Assembly (NCBI GenBank): GCA_012729225.1
Contig: JAAYDO010000001.1
Span: 1 to 35,377, forward strand
Length of the DNA: 35,377 nucleotides
Direction of reading: 5' to 3'
Source: Bacteroidales bacterium
Lineage (GTDB): Bacteria > Bacteroidota > Bacteroidia > Bacteroidales > Bacteroidaceae
Shown: positions 2,656 through 35,377 of the stretch, one piece after another
Layout of the letters: each line of letters starts with the position of its first letter
Numbering within the stretch: the first letter of the stretch is position 1
Made by a program: the position numbers and the translations under genes
Notes under the pieces: model-generated
Seen by the model: only the letters and a program-made list of their open reading frames with translations
Told to the model about the DNA's origin: nothing
Databases searched by the model: none

Positions 2656-2729
2656 GGACTTGTAGCTCAGTTGGTTAGAGCAACAGACTCATAATCTGGA
2701 GGTCCTTGGTTCAAGCCCAAGCTGGTCCA
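2656..2729 (+). tRNA. tRNA-Met (anticodon CAT)
   Basis: 74-nt cloverleaf with D-arm AGCTCAGTTGGTTAGAGC, anticodon CAT at 2690-2692 in the loop CTCATAA, and T-loop GGTTCAAGCCC. CAT could also mark tRNA-Ile2 (lysidine-modified) or the initiator. The general resemblance to Bacteroidetes elongator tRNA-Met makes that the favoured call. Two non-canonical pairs are visible: T-T at acceptor position 6 and A-G at the base of the anticodon stem. CCA is not encoded. A terminator follows directly. Confidence 0.88.
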
Positions 2730-2740
2730 CATTGAAAATC

Positions 2741-2776
2741 AAGCACTTACAAAGTTTTTGTAGGTGCTTTTTCTTT
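2741..2776 (+). terminator. Rho-independent terminator of the tRNA unit
   Basis: AAGCACTTACAAA and TTTGTAGGTGCTT form a long, near-perfect stem (one C-G to T-G change), followed by TTTTCTTTT. It lies 12 bases after tRNA-Met. Confidence 0.85.
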
Positions 2777-2780
2777 TCTT

Positions 2781-2986
2781 GGTGAACATGAGGTGAACAT
2801 AGAGAGCCCGAAGTGACCTTTAGGCGACCTTCCGAAATTCAATGTGATTTCTTGTGAGTTCAAGAAATTTATTCATGGCATACTGCGCCAAATAGACATC
2901 TCTCACGCTATGGATAAGTGGGAACATTTTGGGAACAACAACCCCACTGACAATCGGCATTGTTTCTAAAAATCAGTGGGGTTGTT
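2781..2986 (+). other. Possible relic of a tRNA-associated integrase attachment site
   Basis: The 355-base interval between tRNA-Met and the LRR gene has no credible gene but is structured. GGTGAACAT occurs at 2781-2789 and 2792-2800 (11-bp period), and TGGGAACA at 2919-2926 and 2930-2937 (again 11 bp). This gives four GKGAACA copies in two pairs one helical turn apart. Between them is an inverted repeat ATTTCTTG/CAAGAAAT (2847-2854/2861-2868). The right end is a 14-bp perfect hairpin AACAACCCCACTGA/TCAGTGGGGTTGTT (2937-2950/2973-2986). Paired short direct repeats beside a tRNA 3' end are what arm-type sites of tyrosine recombinases look like. No integrase lies beside it. Confidence 0.35.
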
Positions 2987-3084
2987 CGTTTCGTTGTCAA
3001 TCTTGAAAAGATGATTACAAGTAATTCAGATAAGTTCGTACTCTTCAATTAAAACAGCTAAACTTAGAATGGAAGATCATCACT

Positions 3085-3826: not shown

Positions 3827-6385
3827 TTAAAACTTAAATTCTAATGCAAATTTGACTGCTTGCTTTTTCGCTGTGGGTAAATCCAAATAATTAAGCCTTC
3901 GAATATATTCCACATGCAATATATTCAAGATGTTATGTACACCGATAGACAATTCCCAGTAAGGATTATTAGAATCCATTATATAACTGCCATCAGGAAA
4001 AGGCATCAGAATACTAGAAGAAATATTATTCCTTAAATATGGATTATTTTTATCGGAAAGATCGCCCCATAGGCATTTTAATCCAAGGCATTCTCTACAT
4101 TTCATCATTTTTAGAATAGGTATTCGGTTAAATAGTTTGCCTTGCAAATCCCATGTGAGCTCCCATGAAAGGAATCTGTCATTGAGGAACTCCATATTAT
4201 TAATTAGGTCAAAAGTATTTGGGGACTTGTAAATGCTAACATTAGTTGCTGGCATTATTAATAATGGGAATGGGACTTGATTCCATTGGACTCCAACTAA
4301 CAACCTGCCTTCAATGCATCCAAAACCCATGGGCAACCAGAATGGCTTTGTGAGTTCCATTTCCGTATAATTGTAGTTGTATTGTCCACCTAACAGACCT
4401 TCGAATCCCTTTGTATGTTGCAATCTTATTATTGGCGAACTATAATTGATAGCCCATCGTTGTTGCTTGGTTGTAAAATAGGTTTCGTTAGGTGCATATC
4501 TCAGACCTATTGTTCCTTCTGAATAGCGAATGGATGAAAGTTGCGTTATTCTACCCATTGGTTTGAAAGCAATAATCCCTAAGGGTCTTACTTTCTCGGT
4601 CCTCATTTCCCCATACACTTTGAATCCATTCAACCATTCGTAATCGAGACGAACAGACTGACGATTATACAGGAACATCTTGTCAATGTCAGTTGTCTTT
4701 ATAGAGGTAAAAACATTGTCCTTGTCGGAATCTAGAAATTTGTCGCTTGGCAGAGCAACATCACGCATAGATTCAATAGTGAGGGTACGTTTAGGATATT
4801 CGTATGGCTGGTACTTAGGAGAACTAAAACTATAAATGAGCTGGACATCGTAGTAATTCTCTTTTGATTTGAATGCATGAGCATAATATCCCTTTAAAAA
4901 AAGATGAGGATGGAGGTTAGCCGTGGTTTGTCCTCCAAATCGGAATCTCAGGCCATCATTGAAATTACTGGAGAGAGTGCTGAATACTGGTCCAATGTCG
5001 AACTTGCTAGGGGAATACTCACTGCCTGTTTCGATAAAGTTCTCAAACAACATTTTCATGCCTATCATCAGGTTCTTAAACCCACGTATTTTGTACATCT
5101 CCGTCACCAAGGAATCAACAGCATACTCCCCACGTGTCATAGTTCCCTTCCTATAATTCTCCCAATAAAGGAATGGACGTTTTTCTGCATCTATGGTACT
5201 TACAACGGACCTGTTGTCGTGCATCAAGGAATCAGGCAATGGAGAGAAGGAGAAATTAGAACGTCGAGTGTTTCGAATAATGATGGCTTTAGCAGCATTC
5301 TTGGTAATGTCCATTTCTGCTATCATGTCATCATGCCCCAGAACCCATTCGCCTGTATCTAGCAAAACAAACTCCTGGATGCAACGCATGTTGTCTATCC
5401 AGTTCACATCACTACTTTTCGGAAAAGACATTTCACATCGTCTTACTTGGTATGAACCATCTGCCATGACAAGCAATTTCCCTTTAAATCCGAAGTCCTG
5501 CTGATTGACAGGAAAGAAGTCTACTTGATAGCAGGTGTCCCGTGCAACAAGAATTGTGTCGGTGATGTAGTAATGGTAGAAAGTGATAGCATCGCGGCCT
5601 ATGGGACTGGAAAAGGCATGATGCAAGAAGCGTATCTCGTTGTCGTAAATATCAATGTCGTTGAAATAGTCCTTTAATATGACGTTGATTATCTCGCCCG
5701 TCTGAAACAAGTTGCTTATGCCAGAGATACGATGGGCATGAACTATCTCTTTCTCGAATCGAGAAGACTTACAATAAAGCCGCTCAATTACAGTTTCTTC
5801 TACCATAACTGGCAACGTTAGTTTATTGTTGTATTGAGAAACCTCTAAGTGGTTGTTCAGCCAAGGACGATCCTTGAAGAGACCTCTTTGTAAATCCTCC
5901 TGCTTTAAGTCGTTAAATCCGGCACTTATCTTCTGGTAATTCGTATATCTATAATAGTCCCTATTTCGTAAACTTGTTTTTTGCTTAGCAGCAATCACTT
6001 TTCTCATGAGTTCCACGGCTGGATTGTTCTTGCGTTGGTATCTCTCGCGTTTAGCCTTCACGGTCACTTCGTTTAGTTGCATGGTTACGGGTTCCATAGC
6101 TATGATAGCTTCGTATGGCTCACTCTTAAAGCTATATTCCAAACGCTTATACCCTACAGATGTTACTATGACGCGTTGCTCCATATTTTGAGGCAAAATG
6201 AAACGGCCTTCCATATCTGCCTTGGTGAGAACTCTACCATAAAAGTCGCTGACTGTCGCCCCTGCTATAGGTAGACTGTCAGAGCTGTCAATAACGATTC
6301 CTCTTAATTGTGCTATTGCAGGCTGTATGCTAACACTTAGCAGGAAGAACGTTATCAGTGTAATATTTCCTATTAATCTTGCCAT
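3827..6385 (-). CDS. DUF5686/carboxypeptidase-regulatory-like outer-membrane protein, last gene of the APE operon
   Basis: About 852 residues from ATG 6385. The longer frame begins at a TTG at 6400. The signal peptide runs MARLIGNITLITFFLLSV to IQPAIA, then QLRG. Residues about 25-110 form a CarboxypepD_reg-like beta-sandwich (GIVIDSSDSLPIAGATVSD, ITSVGYK-like VTSVGYKRLEYSF). The remainder matches the DUF5686 layout, with many alternating aromatic strands in the C-terminal third and a terminal ...KFALEFKF, suggesting an outer-membrane barrel. Function of the family is unknown. It overlaps the ligase gene by 56 bases in a different frame, so it is tightly coupled to the pigment operon. Inference: an outer-membrane partner or final-location factor for the pigment. 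It could instead be an unrelated passenger, as DUF5686 proteins are common outside APE loci. Confidence 0.8.
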   Translation of the reverse strand: MARLIGNITLITFFLLSVSIQPAIAQLRGIVIDSSDSLPIAGATVSDFYGRVLTKADMEGRFILPQNMEQRVIVTSVGYKRLEYSFKSEPYEAIIAMEPVTMQLNEVTVKAKRERYQRKNNPAVELMRKVIAAKQKTSLRNRDYYRYTNYQKISAGFNDLKQEDLQRGLFKDRPWLNNHLEVSQYNNKLTLPVMVEETVIERLYCKSSRFEKEIVHAHRISGISNLFQTGEIINVILKDYFNDIDIYDNEIRFLHHAFSSPIGRDAITFYHYYITDTILVARDTCYQVDFFPVNQQDFGFKGKLLVMADGSYQVRRCEMSFPKSSDVNWIDNMRCIQEFVLLDTGEWVLGHDDMIAEMDITKNAAKAIIIRNTRRSNFSFSPLPDSLMHDNRSVVSTIDAEKRPFLYWENYRKGTMTRGEYAVDSLVTEMYKIRGFKNLMIGMKMLFENFIETGSEYSPSKFDIGPVFSTLSSNFNDGLRFRFGGQTTANLHPHLFLKGYYAHAFKSKENYYDVQLIYSFSSPKYQPYEYPKRTLTIESMRDVALPSDKFLDSDKDNVFTSIKTTDIDKMFLYNRQSVRLDYEWLNGFKVYGEMRTEKVRPLGIIAFKPMGRITQLSSIRYSEGTIGLRYAPNETYFTTKQQRWAINYSSPIIRLQHTKGFEGLLGGQYNYNYTEMELTKPFWLPMGFGCIEGRLLVGVQWNQVPFPLLIMPATNVSIYKSPNTFDLINNMEFLNDRFLSWELTWDLQGKLFNRIPILKMMKCRECLGLKCLWGDLSDKNNPYLRNNISSSILMPFPDGSYIMDSNNPYWELSIGVHNILNILHVEYIRRLNYLDLPTAKKQAVKFALEFKF

Positions 6386-7673
6386 TGAAAGTTCGTTCAA
6401 CCTTCTCCACCTGACTATACAACATGGGTATCTTATATGGTTCCAACTTCGATTTCAGATACAGTGCCAATTCCTTTCGGTTTAGCTCTTTACCTTCCTT
6501 CATGACAACCAATAGTTTCAAGGCTTTGCCTGTAATGATGTGATCAACGGGCAAACAAACACAATCTTTTACATCTGGAAAAGAAAGAACAGCATCTTCC
6601 ACTTCCGTGGGAGCCACCTTAAATCCACCAACGTTAATAACATCATCCTCACGACCAGTAAGATGTAGCATACCCTCAGCATCCAGTTTCCCAATGTCTG
6701 AAGTATAGATAACACTTTCTTTCAATACAGATGCCGTTCGCTCAGGATCCCCAACATATCCAGACATCAAGGTTTTTCCTTTACAAGCTATTAATCCTTT
6801 GTCGGTAATCATAATCTGGGAATGTTTCATAGGTTTACCCAAGCAACCAGCTTCACACCTTCCATCATTATAATTATAAGTGCTGATGATTCCAGTTTCC
6901 GTTGAAGCGTAGGTATTGTATAGCCGTGTGGTCGGCAATAATTGACATAACGTCATCATGTCGGAATGTGATATCGCTGCGGCCCCTGTTTCAATAAAGT
7001 CTATCTTGTTTGACAGTGAGGACAAACGTTCAGCTCCAAACTGGATAAGAATACGAATGCTGGCAGGGACCAAGAATGTTGCCATTTTGGATGCAGAATA
7101 ATCAAAGGCATCAAAGAACTTGTTCAGGTCTTTCAGACCATCTACAATGATGATTGTTGCCCCCAGCATGATAACTGGATAGATTTTGGACAGGCTTCCA
7201 ATATGATTCAGTGGACCATTAACTACAAATGCCAGTTCATGAGAGAACCCCTGGCCATCAATCAGATTCTCTGCATCGGCAATGATGGTCTGATGACTAA
7301 TGATTACTCCTTTTGATTTTCCTGTTGTCCCCGTCGTATATAGTATATCTGCAGAACCCTTCGGAACGTTATGAGGACACAGTTCACTAGAAATCTTTTG
7401 GAATGAGGATTCTGGCAAATCCTTTTCCAAAGGCGCAACGACACATCCTATCATGTGAAATGCAAAGTACTCCACAAGAAAACCGATAGAAGGAATTGCT
7501 CTCAGACATACTATTTGACCATCTTGATAATTTGCCTCTTTTAGTTCAATGGTTTTTCTTTTAATTCTTTCATGTAGTGCTTGGTATGTACACTTTTCAT
7601 TACCACACACGACAGCTATTTTGTCTGGGTAAGTTGTCGCATTGCGTTCGATATAATCCTCTATGGTCATCAT
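6330..7673 (-). CDS. AMP-forming acyl/aryl ligase (ANL superfamily), ApeH-like starter-activating enzyme
   Basis: Adenylates a carboxylic acid and passes it to a pantetheine thiol. Visible core motifs (numbering from ATG 7673): the phosphate-binding loop YTTGTTGKSKG (about 112-122), NTYASTETG (about 253-261), YTSDIGKLDAEG (about 323-334), LTGREDDVINVGGFKVAP (about 338-355), and the C-terminal catalytic Lys in FNGKINRKYY (Lys about 432). At 447 residues it is compact for the family. The ATG at 7673 is chosen because it follows the TGA of the upstream ACP by one base; the longer frame would run through the ACP gene. Adjacency to a dedicated ACP suggests it loads an aryl acid starter such as 4-hydroxybenzoate or a coumarate. 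The substrate is inferred. Confidence 0.85.
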   Translation of the reverse strand: MMTIEDYIERNATTYPDKIAVVCGNEKCTYQALHERIKRKTIELKEANYQDGQIVCLRAIPSIGFLVEYFAFHMIGCVVAPLEKDLPESSFQKISSELCPHNVPKGSADILYTTGTTGKSKGVIISHQTIIADAENLIDGQGFSHELAFVVNGPLNHIGSLSKIYPVIMLGATIIIVDGLKDLNKFFDAFDYSASKMATFLVPASIRILIQFGAERLSSLSNKIDFIETGAAAISHSDMMTLCQLLPTTRLYNTYASTETGIISTYNYNDGRCEAGCLGKPMKHSQIMITDKGLIACKGKTLMSGYVGDPERTASVLKESVIYTSDIGKLDAEGMLHLTGREDDVINVGGFKVAPTEVEDAVLSFPDVKDCVCLPVDHIITGKALKLLVVMKEGKELNRKELALYLKSKLEPYKIPMLYSQVEKVERTFNGKINRKYYTDNVLPAKC

Positions 7674-29170: not shown

Positions 29171-29902
29171 TTATGTATATAATCCTCCGTTAATATTTAT
29201 TACTTCTCCTGTTATATATGATGCTTCATCAGATGCAAGAAAAGCAACTAAAGCAGCAACTTCTTCTGGTTTGCCAAATCGACCAATAGGAATCAACTTC
29301 TTCAAGCTTTCCTCTGGCAAATTTTTAGTCATGTCTGTTTCAATAAATCCTGGTGCTATGGCATTTACTGTGACATTGCGTGGTGCAACCTCCTGAGCTA
29401 AAGCTTTTGTTGCCCCAATTAATGCCGCTTTGGCTGCACTGTAATTTGTTTGGCCTGGCAATCCTTTCACACCTGACAATGAAGCAATATTAATAATTCT
29501 TCCCCCACGTTTACGAGGCATCATGTGTTTTAGCAGTCTTCTTGTAAGGTGAAAGAACCCATTTAAGGTTGTATCTATAACACTATGCCAATCCTCATCA
29601 GACATCATAAACATAACATTGTCGCGACGAATACCGGCATTGTTAACCAACACCTCAATATAATCATCCTTATGCTTCTCTTCCCATCTATTAATTGCAT
29701 CATCAACTTCTTCTTTACTACATACATTAAATTTCATTAATTCCGCACGACCGCCAGCCCGTTCAATCTCATCTTTAGCATCCTCTGCGGCGTCCTTGTT
29801 TGACTGAAAATTAATTAATACAGGATAACCCATAGAAGCCAATTTGATACAAATTGCCCTTCCAATGCCTCTTGATCCTCCTGTAACCAATGCGTATTTC
29901 AT
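29171..29902 (-). CDS. 3-oxoacyl-ACP reductase, FabG type (ApeQ-like); first gene of the operon
   Basis: 243 residues from ATG 29902. Short-chain dehydrogenase features: MKYALVTGGSRGIGRAI (NADP-binding glycines 8-14), LVNNAGI, Ser in INIASLSG, catalytic YSAAK, and the C-terminal GGLYT. This is the FabG ketoreductase of the polyene cycle. The frame stays open to 30079, but the extra 59 residues run through the inverted-repeat segment and have no resemblance to FabG, so they are rejected. As first gene of the 26-gene run its transcription depends on the 29903-30126 region, where the promoter motif is in the wrong orientation. An alternative is a promoter I cannot see. Confidence 0.92.
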   Translation of the reverse strand: MKYALVTGGSRGIGRAICIKLASMGYPVLINFQSNKDAAEDAKDEIERAGGRAELMKFNVCSKEEVDDAINRWEEKHKDDYIEVLVNNAGIRRDNVMFMMSDEDWHSVIDTTLNGFFHLTRRLLKHMMPRKRGGRIINIASLSGVKGLPGQTNYSAAKAALIGATKALAQEVAPRNVTVNAIAPGFIETDMTKNLPEESLKKLIPIGRFGKPEEVAALVAFLASDEASYITGEVININGGLYT

Positions 29903-29952
29903 ATTAAAAAGATGATGTTTTTTAATGATCCAATATGTCTTTTTCTTATCTG

Positions 29953-29967
29953 TCTCTTTCCAAGAGA
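29953..29967 (+). repeat. Left inverted repeat of a putative invertible promoter segment
   Basis: TCTCTTTCCAAGAGA, itself a near-palindrome (GTCTCTT-TCC-AAGAGAC). It is repeated exactly, in reverse complement, at 30127-30141. It lies 50 bases upstream of the fabG start. The 3-base asymmetric centre (TCC here, GGA in the other copy) is what shows the two copies to be inverted rather than direct. Confidence 0.7.
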
Positions 29968-30126
29968 CGAATTGATTGGGAGGCCTCTTGATAATCAGTG
30001 CTTTTTGTAATCGTTCGAGTTCAAATTGCAAAACAAAGAACAAAAGTGGCACAAGAAAAGTTGTTTTTCTCATGCCCAAAGGTTAAAATGTACAATATTT
30101 TGACTATCTTTGCACACAAATATCCA
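29968..30126. promoter_or_regulatory. Putative 159-bp invertible promoter segment (currently pointing away from the APE operon)
   Basis: The segment between the 15-bp inverted repeats is gene-free. It carries TATCTTTG (30105-30112, plus strand), a full match to the Bacteroidetes -7 box TAnnTTTG in the common context ACTATCTTTGCAC. The -33 position has no TTTG (GGTT there), so the promoter is weak by consensus. It points right, toward the 3' end of the integrase gene. Inversion would bring the box to about 29982-29989 on the minus strand, starting transcription about 70 bases before fabG. On the minus strand in the present orientation I find only AACCTTTG (30084-30077), one mismatch off and without a -33 box. 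This is the arrangement of phase-variable promoters in Bacteroides. Confidence 0.6.
30105..30112 (+). promoter_or_regulatory. Bacteroidetes -7 promoter box inside the putative invertible segment
   Basis: TATCTTTG matches TAnnTTTG exactly and is followed by CACAC, as is common in Bacteroidales. A -33 TTTG at 19-21 bases upstream is absent. The box lies 15 bases from the right inverted repeat, so any transcript would begin close to or within that repeat. Confidence 0.55.
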
Positions 30127-30141
30127 TCTCTTGGAAAGAGA
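30127..30141 (+). repeat. Right inverted repeat of the putative invertible promoter segment
   Basis: TCTCTTGGAAAGAGA, the exact reverse complement of 29953-29967. The repeat ends 28 bases from the integrase stop codon and overlaps by 3 bases a second inverted repeat (30139-30147/30163-30171). It could instead be the attachment core of the mobile element. Confidence 0.7.
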
Positions 30142-30171
30142 TTGAGATTTTTGCTAAACAATTCTCAATCT
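30139..30171 (-). terminator. Hairpin at the 3' end of the integrase gene
   Basis: AGATTGAGA (30139-30147) and TCTCAATCT (30163-30171) form a perfect 9-bp stem with a 15-base loop, starting within the integrase stop codon. Downstream on the minus strand there is only CTTTCC, not a clear T-run, so it may be a weak terminator or a recombinase-related structure. Confidence 0.4.
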
Positions 30172-31363
30172 ACAACAACCCCAATATCATCTTGTTTGCC
30201 TTATCGACCACAGAAGTTTCTAATGAGGCAAGGTAAATCTGTGTTGTTGTCTCAGAATCATGTCCCATTCCTTCACTAATAACCGATAGCGGTACATTCT
30301 TAGCCTTGGCTATACTAGCCCAGGAGTGACGTGCCACATACATGGTCAAAGGACGCTGGAGTTTCAACTTCTTCGAAAGGTCTTTCAAACGATAATTGAC
30401 CAAATGAAGGGCGTTATCATATTGCTTTCGCTCATTGCCAACTTCTTTGATGATAGGGAGAAGAAAGTCTGTTTTGTTGTCGGGGTATTTGGAGATGATT
30501 TCCGACATACACTTTTCCCATTTGATACTCAGCTCTTGTCCAGTTTTTCGTCTACGATAAGTTAGGATGCCATTCTTCAAGTCGGACTTCTTAAGGTATG
30601 CCATGTCCACAAAGGACATTCCTCTTGTGTAGAAACTGAACATAAACATATCACGAGCAAAATCCAATGAGGATTTCATTGACAAGTCCAAATCTTTCAA
30701 AGCCTTGATTGCTTTAATGGGTATGGCTCGTTTAACCGTCTTGTCAACTCCTGTATAGACGTGACGGAATGGATTATTTTGCTCGGTAAGTCCTTTCTCC
30801 ACAGCCCGGTTATAGACAGCCCGAAGGTTTCGCATATAGAACGATATAGTATTCATGCGCACTCCTCTGGTTTTCAGATGTGCCTCATACAGAAGCATCA
30901 AGTCGGAGGTTATGCCGTCAAGAGGGACATCCTGTTCTTCACGAAATGTTATGAAACTTTTCAACGTGGCAGTGTAGGTTTCTGATGTCCTGACCTTTCC
31001 CAACTGTTTCAATTGGGCTATAACACCATGCATAAAGTTGAAGAAGGAGGCTTCCTTGGTCATTCTATGGAACATCGAGGCAACATCGTCTGCCGTAAAT
31101 CTGCGACGTTCCATTTCTAACTGCCGAATAACTTTTTCCAATCGGGCAATGTCCCATTCCAGACGTTCTTTTATGCACAACAAAGTGTTAGAACGATTAC
31201 CGCTGATTATGACGGACTCGGCCTTTTCATCCCATTCGTCCGCAAAGATTTTGTAGTCCGTATTCAATTGTCGAACTATACGCTTATGAATAATCTGGAA
31301 GTATATGCTTCCCTCTTTGCCTTCAACTGTGGAAGGTCTATATTTTACCTTTATTGATGTCAT
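30170..31363 (-). CDS. Bacteroidetes-type tyrosine recombinase (integrase or invertase)
   Basis: 397 residues. N-terminal arm-binding domain (about 1-85), SAM-like core-binding domain (about 105-205), and catalytic domain with Arg247 in FYTRGMSFVDM, Lys273 in RRRKTGQ, Arg345 in YVARHSWAS (Tyr at the usual first His), His368 in GMGHDS and Tyr377 in TQIYLAS. All nucleophilic and activating residues are present, so it should be active. Two contexts fit. It may be the integrase of the mobilisable element (relaxase gene 23 bases upstream). It may be the recombinase that flips the inverted-repeat segment next to its 3' end; Bacteroides Tsr invertases belong to the same family. Both roles may apply. 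Confidence 0.92.
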   Translation of the reverse strand: MTSIKVKYRPSTVEGKEGSIYFQIIHKRIVRQLNTDYKIFADEWDEKAESVIISGNRSNTLLCIKERLEWDIARLEKVIRQLEMERRRFTADDVASMFHRMTKEASFFNFMHGVIAQLKQLGKVRTSETYTATLKSFITFREEQDVPLDGITSDLMLLYEAHLKTRGVRMNTISFYMRNLRAVYNRAVEKGLTEQNNPFRHVYTGVDKTVKRAIPIKAIKALKDLDLSMKSSLDFARDMFMFSFYTRGMSFVDMAYLKKSDLKNGILTYRRRKTGQELSIKWEKCMSEIISKYPDNKTDFLLPIIKEVGNERKQYDNALHLVNYRLKDLSKKLKLQRPLTMYVARHSWASIAKAKNVPLSVISEGMGHDSETTTQIYLASLETSVVDKANKMILGLL

Positions 31364-31386: not shown

Positions 31387-33444
31387 TCAGCAGATTCCCC
31401 AGCCATTCCGTTTCTTTGTTCCATCCCAGTTGGTGAGTTCGCTGTAGGAACCACCACCACATGTGCTGATGCCAACACGACCACCTGCGGCAAGGAGCAG
31501 GTTCTTCATCAGTTCCTTAGGGACTTCCATTTCCTCACATAGTTGTATGGTACGAGATGCTGTCAGGCTGGCTTTGAACTCGGATACACCTGTCCAAGAC
31601 ATCTTCTCCAACAAGTGGTTTGTAGCCGACTTGCGCTGCTCTATATCAGCAGGATCAAGGTCACGCTTGAAAGCTTCGGCTATGATGCCCATTGCCACTG
31701 TGTTGCCCTGCTTGGGCTGGAAATCATTGTCCTTATGCAGTGCATAGTCGTTGATGGCAGCAATGGCATCGTCAATCCATCGGTCAATCTGTTGCCGGAA
31801 GGCTTTCTTATTATGCTGAATGGTGTCCAAAATCTGTTTTATCTCAGGGACATCCAGTATTTCCTTGACTTGGCTTTCGGCTTTGTCGGCTCTTTGGCGT
31901 TCGCTGTTCAGTGCTTCATTGGTTTTTCGAGTTTCGGCATTAGTCTTATCAAGCCTTGCTTGCAGTCCTTTGATTTCTTCGTCTTTCTCGCTTCTGAGGG
32001 CAGCAATGGCATTCTCGTCGATGGAGTCGAGGCGCATCCTTAGATATGAGTTGGTTGCCGTCAACTCTGCATTCTCCACTTGGAGTGTCTTGTTCTTCTC
32101 AATGATGATACTGGCCTCCTTCATGGCTTTCTGATAGAGAGCCTTTCCCGTTTTGAGGATTTCCGAATTCTGCGCCTCCTTGGCCTTGAGCAACTTATCT
32201 TGTGCTTTTGTGAGTATGGACTTGATGGCCTTGCGCCTGTCCTCCTGCCACTGCTTCTTTCCGCCAATGGCAGGAACGGGTATAGCAAGTTCTTCTTGAA
32301 TGTCTTCCCAGGCATCCTCAAATAACTTGTCTGTCTCTATAGCGGGAGGTGTCAGGTCTTCCGGCTTGATGTCAATCGCTTTAGCATACTGTTCATAGAT
32401 TGATGCTCGTTCACGGGCTCTTGATGTTCGGTCATAGGCATGTTGGGTTTCCTCTTCCAACTTTTCTATCTCGCCTTCCAGATCCTTTTTCTCCGTCTGA
32501 GCCTGAGCGATTGCGTCCCTGGATTGCCGTTCGGCTTCAAGCACCGCCTTGTCCTTATGAACACGACTGCGCTTCTCTTCAACTGGCAACATGGCAATGT
32601 CATCCCCTCGTTCCAGTCCGTACTTTCGTCCGACCTGATTGTAGTAGTCGGTGTGCATCTGGTAGTAGGTTCTGCCAACGGCATACTTGTCTTCGCCCCA
32701 TACACGGGCGTATGATACACATTCCTTTTCCCTCCGTTCGACTTCCGTTCTTACGAAGTCGTTGCGGATTTCCTCAGGAAGTTTCTTCCATTCCTTATGC
32801 GTGAGTACGTTAGTTGGGGCGTCCTTATGCACATACTTGACAGATGCGCGACCTCTTGCTTTTGTCTTTGCAACAGGAATAGTCTGGATATGTATGTGCG
32901 GCGTGGTCTCATCAAGATGAACATCAAAACCGATAATGTTCTCTGCTCCCCAACGGTCACATGCCCAGTGGTAGGTGTCCATTGCCCAGTCCTTGATGCC
33001 TTGTTTCAGTTGAATTTGGGCGTTACTTCTTTGAAGGGTGAAATCTACTTCTTGGTTTCCGTATGCGAGACGCGTCAGCACATCATGGTCACCGCTGACG
33101 ACGATGCCAACGGTATAGTTCGGGCTGTTGTCTGAGTTGCCCAACGGATTGTCTTTGTCCTTGTATGGTTTGAAACCGAGTTCATCAAGACGTTTCTGCA
33201 AGCGTTCATGCAATGGCATTGGATTGGAACCGAGGGGAACAATTTCGCCTTTGCCGTTTATCTCAAAATTGAGGTATTTGCGTGAGAAATCGTAGTGGTT
33301 GTTCGTGTCCAGATTCTTTAGACGATAGGTTTTCTCGTTCCATCCACGCCGTTCAGGTTCATAACCTTCAGCTGCGGAAAAAGATTTGGCTGGTGCGCCT
33401 ACATGTATGGCGGCACGGGGTATATTGTTTCTTGCTTTAGACAT
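31387..33444 (-). CDS. MobV/Pre-family relaxase for plasmid or element mobilisation
   Basis: 685 residues. The N-terminal relaxase domain (about 1-250) has the HUH metal site FDVHLDETTPHIHIQTIPV (His176, His183, His185), diagnostic of MobV/Pre. It would nick one strand at oriT and lead it to the recipient cell. The middle and C-terminal parts have long charged coiled coils (about 315-360 and 430-545), common in large Bacteroidetes MobV proteins, and a Gly-rich tail (LLAAGGRVGISTCGGG). No transfer apparatus is encoded nearby, so mobilisation would rely on a helper conjugative element. The likely oriT lies just upstream in 33480-33690. Confidence 0.93.
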   Translation of the reverse strand: MSKARNNIPRAAIHVGAPAKSFSAAEGYEPERRGWNEKTYRLKNLDTNNHYDFSRKYLNFEINGKGEIVPLGSNPMPLHERLQKRLDELGFKPYKDKDNPLGNSDNSPNYTVGIVVSGDHDVLTRLAYGNQEVDFTLQRSNAQIQLKQGIKDWAMDTYHWACDRWGAENIIGFDVHLDETTPHIHIQTIPVAKTKARGRASVKYVHKDAPTNVLTHKEWKKLPEEIRNDFVRTEVERREKECVSYARVWGEDKYAVGRTYYQMHTDYYNQVGRKYGLERGDDIAMLPVEEKRSRVHKDKAVLEAERQSRDAIAQAQTEKKDLEGEIEKLEEETQHAYDRTSRARERASIYEQYAKAIDIKPEDLTPPAIETDKLFEDAWEDIQEELAIPVPAIGGKKQWQEDRRKAIKSILTKAQDKLLKAKEAQNSEILKTGKALYQKAMKEASIIIEKNKTLQVENAELTATNSYLRMRLDSIDENAIAALRSEKDEEIKGLQARLDKTNAETRKTNEALNSERQRADKAESQVKEILDVPEIKQILDTIQHNKKAFRQQIDRWIDDAIAAINDYALHKDNDFQPKQGNTVAMGIIAEAFKRDLDPADIEQRKSATNHLLEKMSWTGVSEFKASLTASRTIQLCEEMEVPKELMKNLLLAAGGRVGISTCGGGSYSELTNWDGTKKRNGWGIC

Positions 33445-33693: not shown

Positions 33694-34749
33694 TTACGAA
33701 TCGTCCTCAACGATTTCAAGTTCAAGAGCGTCTATGAGTTTCTGGAGGGCTGGATTTAGTTCTATCATTCTGGCCAGAAGCATCTGCTTGGTCTCCTGCA
33801 TCAACAGGAAGTCAGCTATGTCAAGTCCTGCCATGCGCTGCTCATAGGTTGCCGTTTTCTCCAAAACATCAGACACCATCAAACTATGACAAATAGGTTT
33901 GAGTATATCAGACTTCACTTGCCATTTTTCCGTAGCTCCAAGGTCGGGCATGAGAATCACGTCTCTGCCCATAAGCACTTGCAGGGCATCCTCATTGAAA
34001 CAGCCGTTTTTTCCGCCAGTTGCCAACCAGAGGAAATCTGGCATAAAATGTGACGCAATGAGACAGGTCTTCTCACTTTCCACGAGCATGATGGGAGTGG
34101 TTGGATGGGAGTTAAGCAAGTGTTCACCAAACAAACATTGCTTCAGGTTATAGTTGGGTAGTTTCAACAGGGAGTGAACCCAACTGACGTATGCCAGTGG
34201 TTCTTTGATGCGATGTCCGTTCTGCGGATTGTATGCCATGACTTTTCCTCCACGAATGTTGTTATTCACATCAATCTGCCAGAATACAGTCGAGCCATTC
34301 CACTTGTTGGAAGTGCCCACGCAATAGCGTTCAAACTGAAGGTTCGTAGCATTGCTTCCGATCGTCTTGCACAAGTAACGGTGTAGAGGATTAATCTCAT
34401 AATGTGAAAGAGACTTTCTCATTAGCTCCTCAGAAATGAAAGACGGAGCCAAAGGTTCGGTCTTAACTTTTTCGGGGTTGCGTGACATATGTGGCTTATC
34501 AATGATACCGTCATTGTCCTTTGCATCAGGTTTTGCATCTGGGTTATCATGGAAGTAATCCTTGGGAGTATAGTGGTAACCACAAGCATCCTCATGGTCG
34601 CATCGACCCACATAGTCAGGGAAGATGATAATACCTTCCTCGTCAACATACTTGACGAAGCAATTACGTTTGCCACATTTGGGGCAGGTGAGCTTGTTGT
34701 TTCTCCTGCTCGTATCATATTTCTTCAGATGGAATCTATACTGGTTCAT
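33694..34749 (-). CDS. DUF6371 protein with zinc ribbon and Toprim-like region (mobile-element replication)
   Basis: 351 residues. The N-terminus has a zinc-finger pattern (CPKCGKRNC at 22-30, then CDHEDAC at 50-56). The middle carries a Toprim-like segment: PIMLVESEKTCLIASHFM with the conserved Glu, then ATGGKNGC and DVILMPDLGATEKW with the acidic site. This is the DUF6371 layout of Bacteroidetes mobile elements, resembling a primase without its helicase. It is probably involved in replication or priming of the transferred element. Its ATG overlaps the stop of the DUF3987 gene (ATGA), so the two act as a unit, and it is followed by the oriT region. Confidence 0.82.
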   Translation of the reverse strand: MNQYRFHLKKYDTSRRNNKLTCPKCGKRNCFVKYVDEEGIIIFPDYVGRCDHEDACGYHYTPKDYFHDNPDAKPDAKDNDGIIDKPHMSRNPEKVKTEPLAPSFISEELMRKSLSHYEINPLHRYLCKTIGSNATNLQFERYCVGTSNKWNGSTVFWQIDVNNNIRGGKVMAYNPQNGHRIKEPLAYVSWVHSLLKLPNYNLKQCLFGEHLLNSHPTTPIMLVESEKTCLIASHFMPDFLWLATGGKNGCFNEDALQVLMGRDVILMPDLGATEKWQVKSDILKPICHSLMVSDVLEKTATYEQRMAGLDIADFLLMQETKQMLLARMIELNPALQKLIDALELEIVEDDS

Positions 34750-35377
34750 ATTGTTGGAGTTTGATTTTGGTGATTATTATCGTTACACTTTGGAACTATG
34801 GTATTTGGGGTACTTTGGGAACTTTCGGAATCAGCATGAGCTTCTGAAAGTGGAAAAGTACCCAAAGTGGAAAGAGTTTGGAGAGAGCAAGAGGGAACTT
34901 TCTCATATAACCCATGTGCCTTTTTGGAGATATACTTCTGGTGAATCAGCTTAGGCAAATTCTTCTTGACTCCACTTGCCGACATGCCAACCTCCACACC
35001 AGCAGCGATTGCTTCAGCTGTGGTAAAAGAATTACCCAGCAAGTCAAGGAACTCCTTCTTGTCAGGTTCTATGCTGTGCGCATCAACTATGTCTAAGATT
35101 CTCGTATATGATTCCTCCATGAAAGCATGCATACGCAAAGCACAACGGATGGACTTTTCATCAACAAGCGTGTCGGTTGTTTCTCCACATGCCCAACGGA
35201 GCATCTGGAAGATAAGAGCCAAGCGTCCGACATTCGCCTCCATCTTGGCTGTGCGACGCACCAAACGGTTTGCTTCCATGCTTCCCTGCCGACCGATGGC
35301 AAAAGCCTCCTCCTTTAGTTTGTTGCGCCAGTTATAAAACAAGCATTTGGCATCATAAGTCATATCAAGGACTATAG
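34746..35377 (-). CDS. DUF3987 protein, C-terminal part (continues beyond the right edge)
   Basis: The frame is open to the last base; the ATG at 35363 is internal (IVLD precedes it). The visible 210 residues match the C-terminal part of DUF3987 primase/helicase-like proteins: RLVRRTAKMEANVGRLALIF (KxxxxxxRLALI-type), then ALRMHAFMEESYTRILDIV, and a winged-helix-like end (SASGVKKNLPKLIHQKYISK). The acidic, Ser/Asn-rich tail of about 40 residues is poorly conserved. It pairs with DUF6371 downstream in the same element type. The nucleotide-binding part lies off the window, so activity cannot be judged. Confidence 0.75.
   Translation of the reverse strand, partial: IVLDMTYDAKCLFYNWRNKLKEEAFAIGRQGSMEANRLVRRTAKMEANVGRLALIFQMLRWACGETTDTLVDEKSIRCALRMHAFMEESYTRILDIVDAHSIEPDKKEFLDLLGNSFTTAEAIAAGVEVGMSASGVKKNLPKLIHQKYISKKAHGLYEKVPSCSLQTLSTLGTFPLSEAHADSESSQSTPNTIVPKCNDNNHQNQTPTI

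Follow-up and report, generated by a model that had tools for sequence, protein, structure and literature searches.

Upstream of a large pigment operon in a Bacteroidales bacterium lies a short stretch of gene-free DNA between two inverted repeats, and the question is whether this stretch is a promoter that inverts, and if so by which enzyme and on what carrier. The window, that is, the whole stretch of 35,377 nucleotides analysed here, comes from a 2.89-Mb draft genome. A sequence-only reading had proposed an invertible promoter in front of the operon. The proposal is supported by an adjacent tyrosine recombinase gene, which that reading left unmentioned, as it did the mobile element, and by the same cassette in 26 relatives, where it occurs in both orientations. 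We consider it very probable that 29953-30141 is an invertible promoter that switches the operon by means of the local recombinase, and that the whole is carried on a mobile element.

The segment in front of the pigment operon

The features of the switch region and of the operon are the following.

3827-6400, minus strand: DUF5686 protein of 857 aa, downstream of the operon on the same strand
6330-29902, minus strand: flexirubin/aryl polyene operon with flxB first, gene order largely conserved in relatives
29953-29967, plus strand: distal arm of the inverted repeat and recombination core, TCTCTTTCCAAGAGA, with 50 bp between it and the flxB ATG
29968-30126: invertible inner segment of 159 bp, drawn OFF, homologous segments flipped in relatives
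30025-30035, minus strand: internal arm-like site TGTTTTGCAAT with 2 mismatches, 91 bp from the proximal core
30048-30076, minus strand: terminator-like hairpin with a 12-bp stem and a T-rich tail, which faces flxB only while the segment is OFF
30105-30112, plus strand: -7 box TATCTTTG, 14 bp from the proximal core, facing the recombinase gene
30127-30141, minus strand: proximal inverted repeat (recombination core), the identical 15-mer
30150-30160, minus strand: arm-like accessory site TGTTTAGCAAA, exact, 8 bp outside the proximal core
30170-31363, minus strand: tyrosine recombinase of 397 aa, presumed invertase, with the domains Arm-DNA-bind_5, Phage_int_SAM_5 and Phage_integrase

The perfect 15-bp repeat claimed earlier is there, TCTCTTTCCAAGAGA being exact at 29953-29967 (+) and 30127-30141 (-), and the spacing between the arms measured the claimed 159 bp. 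In the entire window this is the only pair of perfect inverted repeats of at least 15 bp with arm starts no more than 400 bp apart, and in the whole draft genome the exact 15-mer has two sites only, the two repeat arms. Such a repeat had been called improbable by chance; when the 267-bp intergenic sequence was simulated 2000 times by a Markov model, that length was reached once, and a chance palindrome was rejected. The anatomy of the segment is established by sequence. The locus itself was present in one draft genome (88.8% complete) among the genomes searched, in the OFF form. No matches were found to phage records, and the junction had no match among viral contigs. A third site in the genome, TCTCTTnnnAAGAGAC on contig C30, was considered as a further switch and rejected, as it is a single site without a second copy there; by eye, its flanks resemble coding sequence.

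The promoter within the repeats was recognised by its -7 motif alone. TATCTTTG is the single TAnnTTTG in 29880-30250, so the earlier description of a sole -7 box pointing away from the operon was accurate, and since the box is directed at the recombinase gene and away from flxB, the drawn orientation would be OFF, also as proposed. A virtual flip moves the box to 29989-29982 (-), 79 bp before the flxB ATG; flipping does bring it near flxB, but the distance had been put at about 70 bases. The -33 region of the flipped promoter is a weak match to the Bacteroides consensus. A sigma-70 scan found 5 sites against 3.7 expected, inside the range of the shuffles. We also considered whether the operon has a native promoter in the DNA that separates the distal repeat from flxB, and rejected this, there being just 50 bp between that core and flxB, with no other TAnnTTTG box.

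We compared the region with 14 other flxB loci, 13 of them with further operon genes and one (L150) with flxB only. TAnnTTTG stands within 130 bp before flxB in 7 of the 14, so a promoter at this place seems usual. The 450 bp ahead of flxB (360 bp in L142) contain no pair of widely spaced repeats at any of the 14; L146 has a 13-bp hairpin there.

The hairpin at 30076-30048 (-) has a fold z of -3.3, and from its position and direction it would halt read-through towards flxB in the OFF form only. The region is not enriched in terminator-like sites over shuffles (2 found against 1.3 expected, both strands). Hairpins similar to 30048-30076 are not general among the cassettes of relatives, and a terminator-like hairpin was rejected as a conserved part of the switch.

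FlxB scores 412 bits against the flexirubin model NF053542 (cut-off 340), and further domains follow in a conserved order: ketosynthases, ACP, thioesterase, acyltransferases, LolA and MMPL proteins. The order from flxB to the acyl-CoA ligase is largely kept in relatives, with flxB leading, and the predicted product is a yellow aryl polyene pigment. The sequence-only reading was right about a large pigment operon, but its 26 genes are not clearly borne out: we count 24 same-strand ORFs when three short ones that are nested in or overlap others are omitted, and 25 if the DUF5686 gene, which overlaps the operon, is included. The DUF5686 protein had no match in the regions of relatives that were compared. 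The flxB frame can be extended upstream to a TTG at 30079, inside the segment, and the alignment of FlxB to its model begins at residue 2 of the protein read from the ATG at 29902.

The adjacent recombinase and its relatives

The recombinase gene at 30170-31363 (-) is the next gene upstream of the segment and is a full-length open frame. Residues R247, K273, R345, H368 and Y377, which we take to be the catalytic R-K-HxxR-H-Y residues, are invariant in 14/14 aligned recombinases, and all 14 have Y342 in place of the first H of HxxR; L070 was omitted from this alignment because of a stop in its frame. Plasmid records held only distant relatives of the protein (85 records, best 57%). A scan of genome contigs returned 169 recombinase relatives, the best 80 of which were kept; with 29 from another search and the window, 110 loci were examined, at identities down to 44%. 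By rule, 67 of these 110 have a repeat pair, some of the pairs being plainly spurious. The counts below are for a narrower set, the 36 loci from the contig scan with at least 66% recombinase identity; two duplicates from the other search, L028 and L030, were dropped.

A repeat pair was found within 1.1 kb downstream of the recombinase in 26 of the 36. Among the pairless loci, the sequence stops at most 180 bp downstream in five (L057, L059, L067, L078 and L084), the recombinase lacks its C-terminus in L104, and L065 counts as pairless through one arm mismatch, its longest perfect stretch being 11 bp. L080, L081 and L083 have no repeat pair in the 1.1 kb downstream, although at least 5.5 kb of sequence is present. 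In L083 a core-like pair with 2 mismatches to the consensus was seen on the upstream side of the gene, at roughly 1600 and 1425 bases ahead of the point where the recombinase frame ends.

Together with the window, the 26 relatives make 27 cassettes laid out as recombinase, repeat, promoter, repeat. Their core is TCTCTTnnnAAGAGA or near it. The central 3 nt of the core come in 10 variants among the 27 cassettes, yet the arms agree in 27/27, and the 7-nt core centres are likewise identical between arms in every case. The identity of the arms is partly built in, because the cassettes were chosen for an inverted repeat of at least 12 bp; that choice leaves the conserved ends and the variable centre unexplained. 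In the 23 cassettes that could be oriented, the distance from the core to the start of a -7-like box is 13-14 bp; 18 of them are OFF (window included) and 5 ON, all being related loci and not independent samples. Four cassettes (L069, L075, L077 and L102) were left unassigned by the orientation rule, and L074 was oriented by CATCTTTG (CAnnTTTG) instead of TAnnTTTG. Cassettes in both orientations are thus a matter of record.

The comparison of related genomes that had been called for gave a reversed homologous segment. L063 and L090 both have the window's own 15-mer as their repeat. Between these two loci a segment of 188 bp is 99.5% identical in opposite orientation only, and its flanks are colinear (2.1 kb upstream at 89%, 1.9 kb downstream at 94%). 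As read from these sequences, the two loci represent one natural inversion of a near-identical segment. L090 is in the ON form, and its recombinase gene, with matches in two frames (L090:2678-3848), looks broken, so its state may be fixed or locked. The recombinase gene of L070 (L070:3903-5093) looks broken by one stop, the cassette being otherwise intact. In L075, which is Segatella albensis DSM 11370, the assembly has a run of 170 N (L075:9238-9407) precisely between both cores; a mixture of both orientations would be expected to give such a run and is possibly its source, masking by the collection being an alternative. This strain and Prevotella sp. tf2-5 (L062) are cassette-bearing relatives that are apparently cultured.

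In 26/26 cassettes, the window counted and L075 excluded because its segment reads N, the spacing between the proximal core and the best match to TGTTTAGCAAA outside it is exactly 8 bp. The match is exact in 22 of the 26 and within 2 mismatches in 25 (L069 has 3), where shuffles predict 0.41 of 26 at up to 2 mismatches. The distance from the core to the end of the recombinase frame ranges from 26 to 766 nt, while the spacing of TGTTTAGCAAA stays at 8 bp; as the motif was picked after inspecting these same sequences, this fixed spacing is a stronger point than the match itself. An internal copy with at most 2 mismatches is present in 22/26 cassettes (2.34 expected); in most of them its distance to the proximal core in the OFF form is about 90 bp. 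From its placement TGTTTAGCAAA is likely an arm site of the recombinase, and the N-terminal arm domain would be the part that binds it.

The genes behind the cassette differ. For 24 relatives of the 66% set (L065 included) we compared one or two genes downstream of the cassette with the PADLOC models, and matches at E 1e-10 or better, which are to single-gene models and not to whole systems, were obtained in 19 (L058, L060, L061, L063-L065, L068, L069, L071-L073, L075-L077, L079, L082, L085, L090 and L132). The models matched were HKD with SNF2 helicase, BREX BrxC, DndC with DndD/PbeC, and type III and type II methyltransferases. The other five of the 24 (L062, L070, L074, L086 and L087) had no PADLOC match; Pfam finds leucine-rich repeats in L070 and a pair of ResIII and N6_N4 methylase in L086. 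Two L066 ORFs matched no Pfam family, L102 has a PCMD match under the curated cut-off (Pfam only), L088 has 320 bp of downstream sequence only, and L089, at 64% identity, has a weak methyltransferase match. Relaxase genes adjoin several of the PADLOC-positive cassettes. When five proteins of the operon, FlxB among them, were searched for in the window and 35 relatives, they were found in the window only, the sole exception being a 32% FlxB-like match on the opposite side of the recombinase in L074.

The mobile element and the rival explanations

The remaining features of the window belong to the element or mark where it is inserted.

2656-2730, plus strand: intact tRNA-Met (CAT), whose 3' end is the insertion site (attL)
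2731-3013: conserved end of the mobile element, from similarity to genomes G024 and G018
31387-33444, minus strand: MobV relaxase
33694-34749, minus strand: element-borne DUF6371/Zn-ribbon (PG0870-like) protein, with 98% identity in G024
34746-35363, minus strand: C-terminal part of a DUF3987 protein, continuing on contig C103 as a 531-aa ORF

The tRNA-Met (CAT) stands beside a tRNA-Gln at 2530-2601, and a tRNA-Gln/tRNA-Met pair was found beside psd in 8/8 psd regions of the same genus that were compared; psd and pssA, beyond the operon, are outside the mobile element. Past the tRNA-Met, similarity to the window ends after 11-22 bp in G026, G003 and G010, after 58 bp in G025 and after 145 bp in G011, and extends for about 283 bp in G024 (96.6%, 358-bp match) and G018 (84%, 359 bp). 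At the right end, contig C103 of the same genome (L232, genome G000) overlaps the window by exactly 127 bases, a sequence that occurs nowhere else in the genome, and the DUF3987 frame runs through the join to 531 aa, the same length as in G024. C103 carries a separate tyrosine integrase of 494 aa and, at 85-127 (attR), a repeat of the final 43 nt of tRNA-Met that is 41/43 identical and not part of a complete tRNA. From the overlap, the integrase and the tRNA-Met copy it follows that the element measures about 38.6 kb and has its own integrase, distinct from the switch recombinase; the join consists of one 127-base overlap and frame continuity in a draft genome. With an integrase, a MobV relaxase and att direct repeats at a tRNA, the features of an integrative mobilizable element are present and its ends are established. 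We read the switch, the recombinase and the operon as cargo of this element in tRNA-Met, which is predicted to be capable of excision and transfer.

Nearly the same element backbone is found in G024, another species of the same genus (L200, L213 and L233), with the C-terminal part of the DUF3987 protein at 100%, DUF6371 at 98% and MobV at 67% identity to the window. The element ends in the same way in G024, where a second contig bears an att of this kind together with an integrase frame of 441 aa that shows only a SAM-like domain by Pfam. At the ends of one part of the G024 element a direct repeat was not found, the partial tRNA being on the other contig. The similarity falls off inside MobV, at about window position 32457, and after MobV the cargo is different, an alginate-lyase-domain protein coming first, with no invertase cassette. 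This suggests that a block of MobV, invertase and cargo may have been exchanged between elements. Second recombinases were also seen upstream of the invertase in other relatives: about 500 aa long and about 6.5 kb away in L060, L062 and L132, and of 394 aa about 8 kb away in L068; in L090 the upstream side is ended by the contig end.

These data bear on the possibility that the repeats are attachment sites of the mobile element and the recombinase its integrase, with no promoter switch at all. The recombinase does adjoin a relaxase gene and further parts of a mobilizable element, and it is common for an integrase gene to be next to its own att site. The other integrase on C103, beside the 43-nt duplicate of the tRNA-Met 3' end, contradicts this, a separate integrase and att sites speaking against the repeats as insertion ends of the element. 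The repeats are moreover inverted and span 189 bp, homologous segments are flipped in place, and G024 has a near-identical backbone without this recombinase after MobV, so we regard an attachment-site origin as highly improbable. Quite unlikely, too, is a former switch that has become locked OFF, the segment being inert in this lineage and the operon silent or otherwise driven. OFF is the single form seen here, the internal arm-like site has 2 mismatches and the -33 region is poor; against this, the recombinase is full-length with its catalytic residues conserved, both cores are perfect and the outer arm-like site is exact.

It is also unlikely that the segment inverts while the operon is mainly expressed from elsewhere, by read-through or from internal promoters, so that inversion just modulates it. 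As the recombinase gene and mobV are co-oriented with flxB and transcribed towards it, read-through could add to flxB expression. However, 29880-30250 holds no flxB-facing TAnnTTTG in the drawn state, a terminator-like hairpin (of a kind not enriched over shuffles) is turned towards flxB when the segment is OFF, and half of the other flxB loci have the box close to flxB.

We thus return to the promoter inversion. In the mechanism that we infer, the tyrosine recombinase would bind both 15-bp cores and catalyse the reaction, probably assisted by arm-type sites (TGTTTAGCAAA) located beyond the proximal core and within the segment, and strand exchange within the short variable core centre would invert the 159-bp segment. 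In the drawn orientation the sole TAnnTTTG box would fire towards the recombinase gene and the pigment operon would be silent (OFF). After inversion the box, 79 bp before flxB, would drive the flexirubin/aryl polyene operon (ON). Flipping at the window locus, control of the whole operon and phase variation of the pigment would follow from these steps. Because the switch, its likely enzyme and the operon share one mobile element, the trait could be acquired already set to switch.

Comparison with known systems

More generally, it seems somewhat more probable than the contrary that the recombinase and the invertible promoter form a portable phase-variation gate at the cargo junction of small mobilizable elements, which would give new hosts a randomly switching, mostly OFF trait, the cargo usually being phage-defence systems and here a membrane-pigment operon. 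If so, pigmentation would be a horizontally acquired, phase-variable surface character, the membrane pigment would join the phase-variable surface features, and the locus would be an example of an element that keeps costly cargo silent in most cells. That such cassettes stand before genes with matches to BREX, Dnd-like, type II/III methyltransferase and HKD-SNF2 models points to a common bet-hedging device for mobile defence.

As to the carrier, NBU1 is a tRNA-integrating mobilizable element of Bacteroidales, and elements of its type share with ours an integrase at one end, mobilization genes and insertion at a tRNA 3' end. Unlike these, the window element adds a second recombinase with a promoter switch at the cargo junction. 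As to the switch, in B. fragilis one master serine invertase, Mpi, acts in trans on many of the PSA-PSH promoters, whereas here a local tyrosine recombinase goes with one exact site pair in the genome. The B. fragilis PSA-PSH polysaccharide promoters invert, and both systems have ON/OFF promoter inversion ahead of a biosynthesis operon (PMC10939037). The likeness to Bacteroides polysaccharide promoters that had been pointed out thus holds for the kind of switch, but the related cassettes mostly precede genes matching phage-defence models instead. Promoter inversion in Bacteroidales is described for capsules, surface proteins and resistance genes (PMC8748976, PMC10333322, PMC10939037, PMC12118408, PMC5729914).

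Closer in layout are the invertible promoters of capsule operons in B. xylanisolvens, P. distasonis and B. thetaiotaomicron, which have internally palindromic repeats near integrase or invertase genes, "tyrosine-type" being stated for B. thetaiotaomicron (PMC12118408). Those promoters and ours have in common short repeats with an internal palindrome, a recombinase gene alongside and a promoter region ahead of a biosynthesis operon; the repeat TCTCTTnnnAAGAGA, the span of about 188 bp and the downstream genes differ here. The nearest counterpart in carriage is provided by Yan et al. 2022, where invertases and invertible promoters on Bacteroidales ICEs control resistance and glycan genes (PMC8748976). 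Their modules share with ours a local site-specific recombinase with an invertible promoter just downstream, a mobile carrier and variable genes behind the promoter (PMC8748976). Likened by description, the carrier here differs from those ICEs in being a smaller MobV mobilizable element in tRNA-Met, and the cargo differs in being a flexirubin/aryl polyene operon, which stands behind the cassette in the window only, the relatives having mostly phage-defence-model genes. A literature search of titles and abstract starts, covering few subscription papers, returned no phase-variable aryl polyene or flexirubin operon. Set against these systems, the locus combines a known mechanism with a new cargo and a different carrier.
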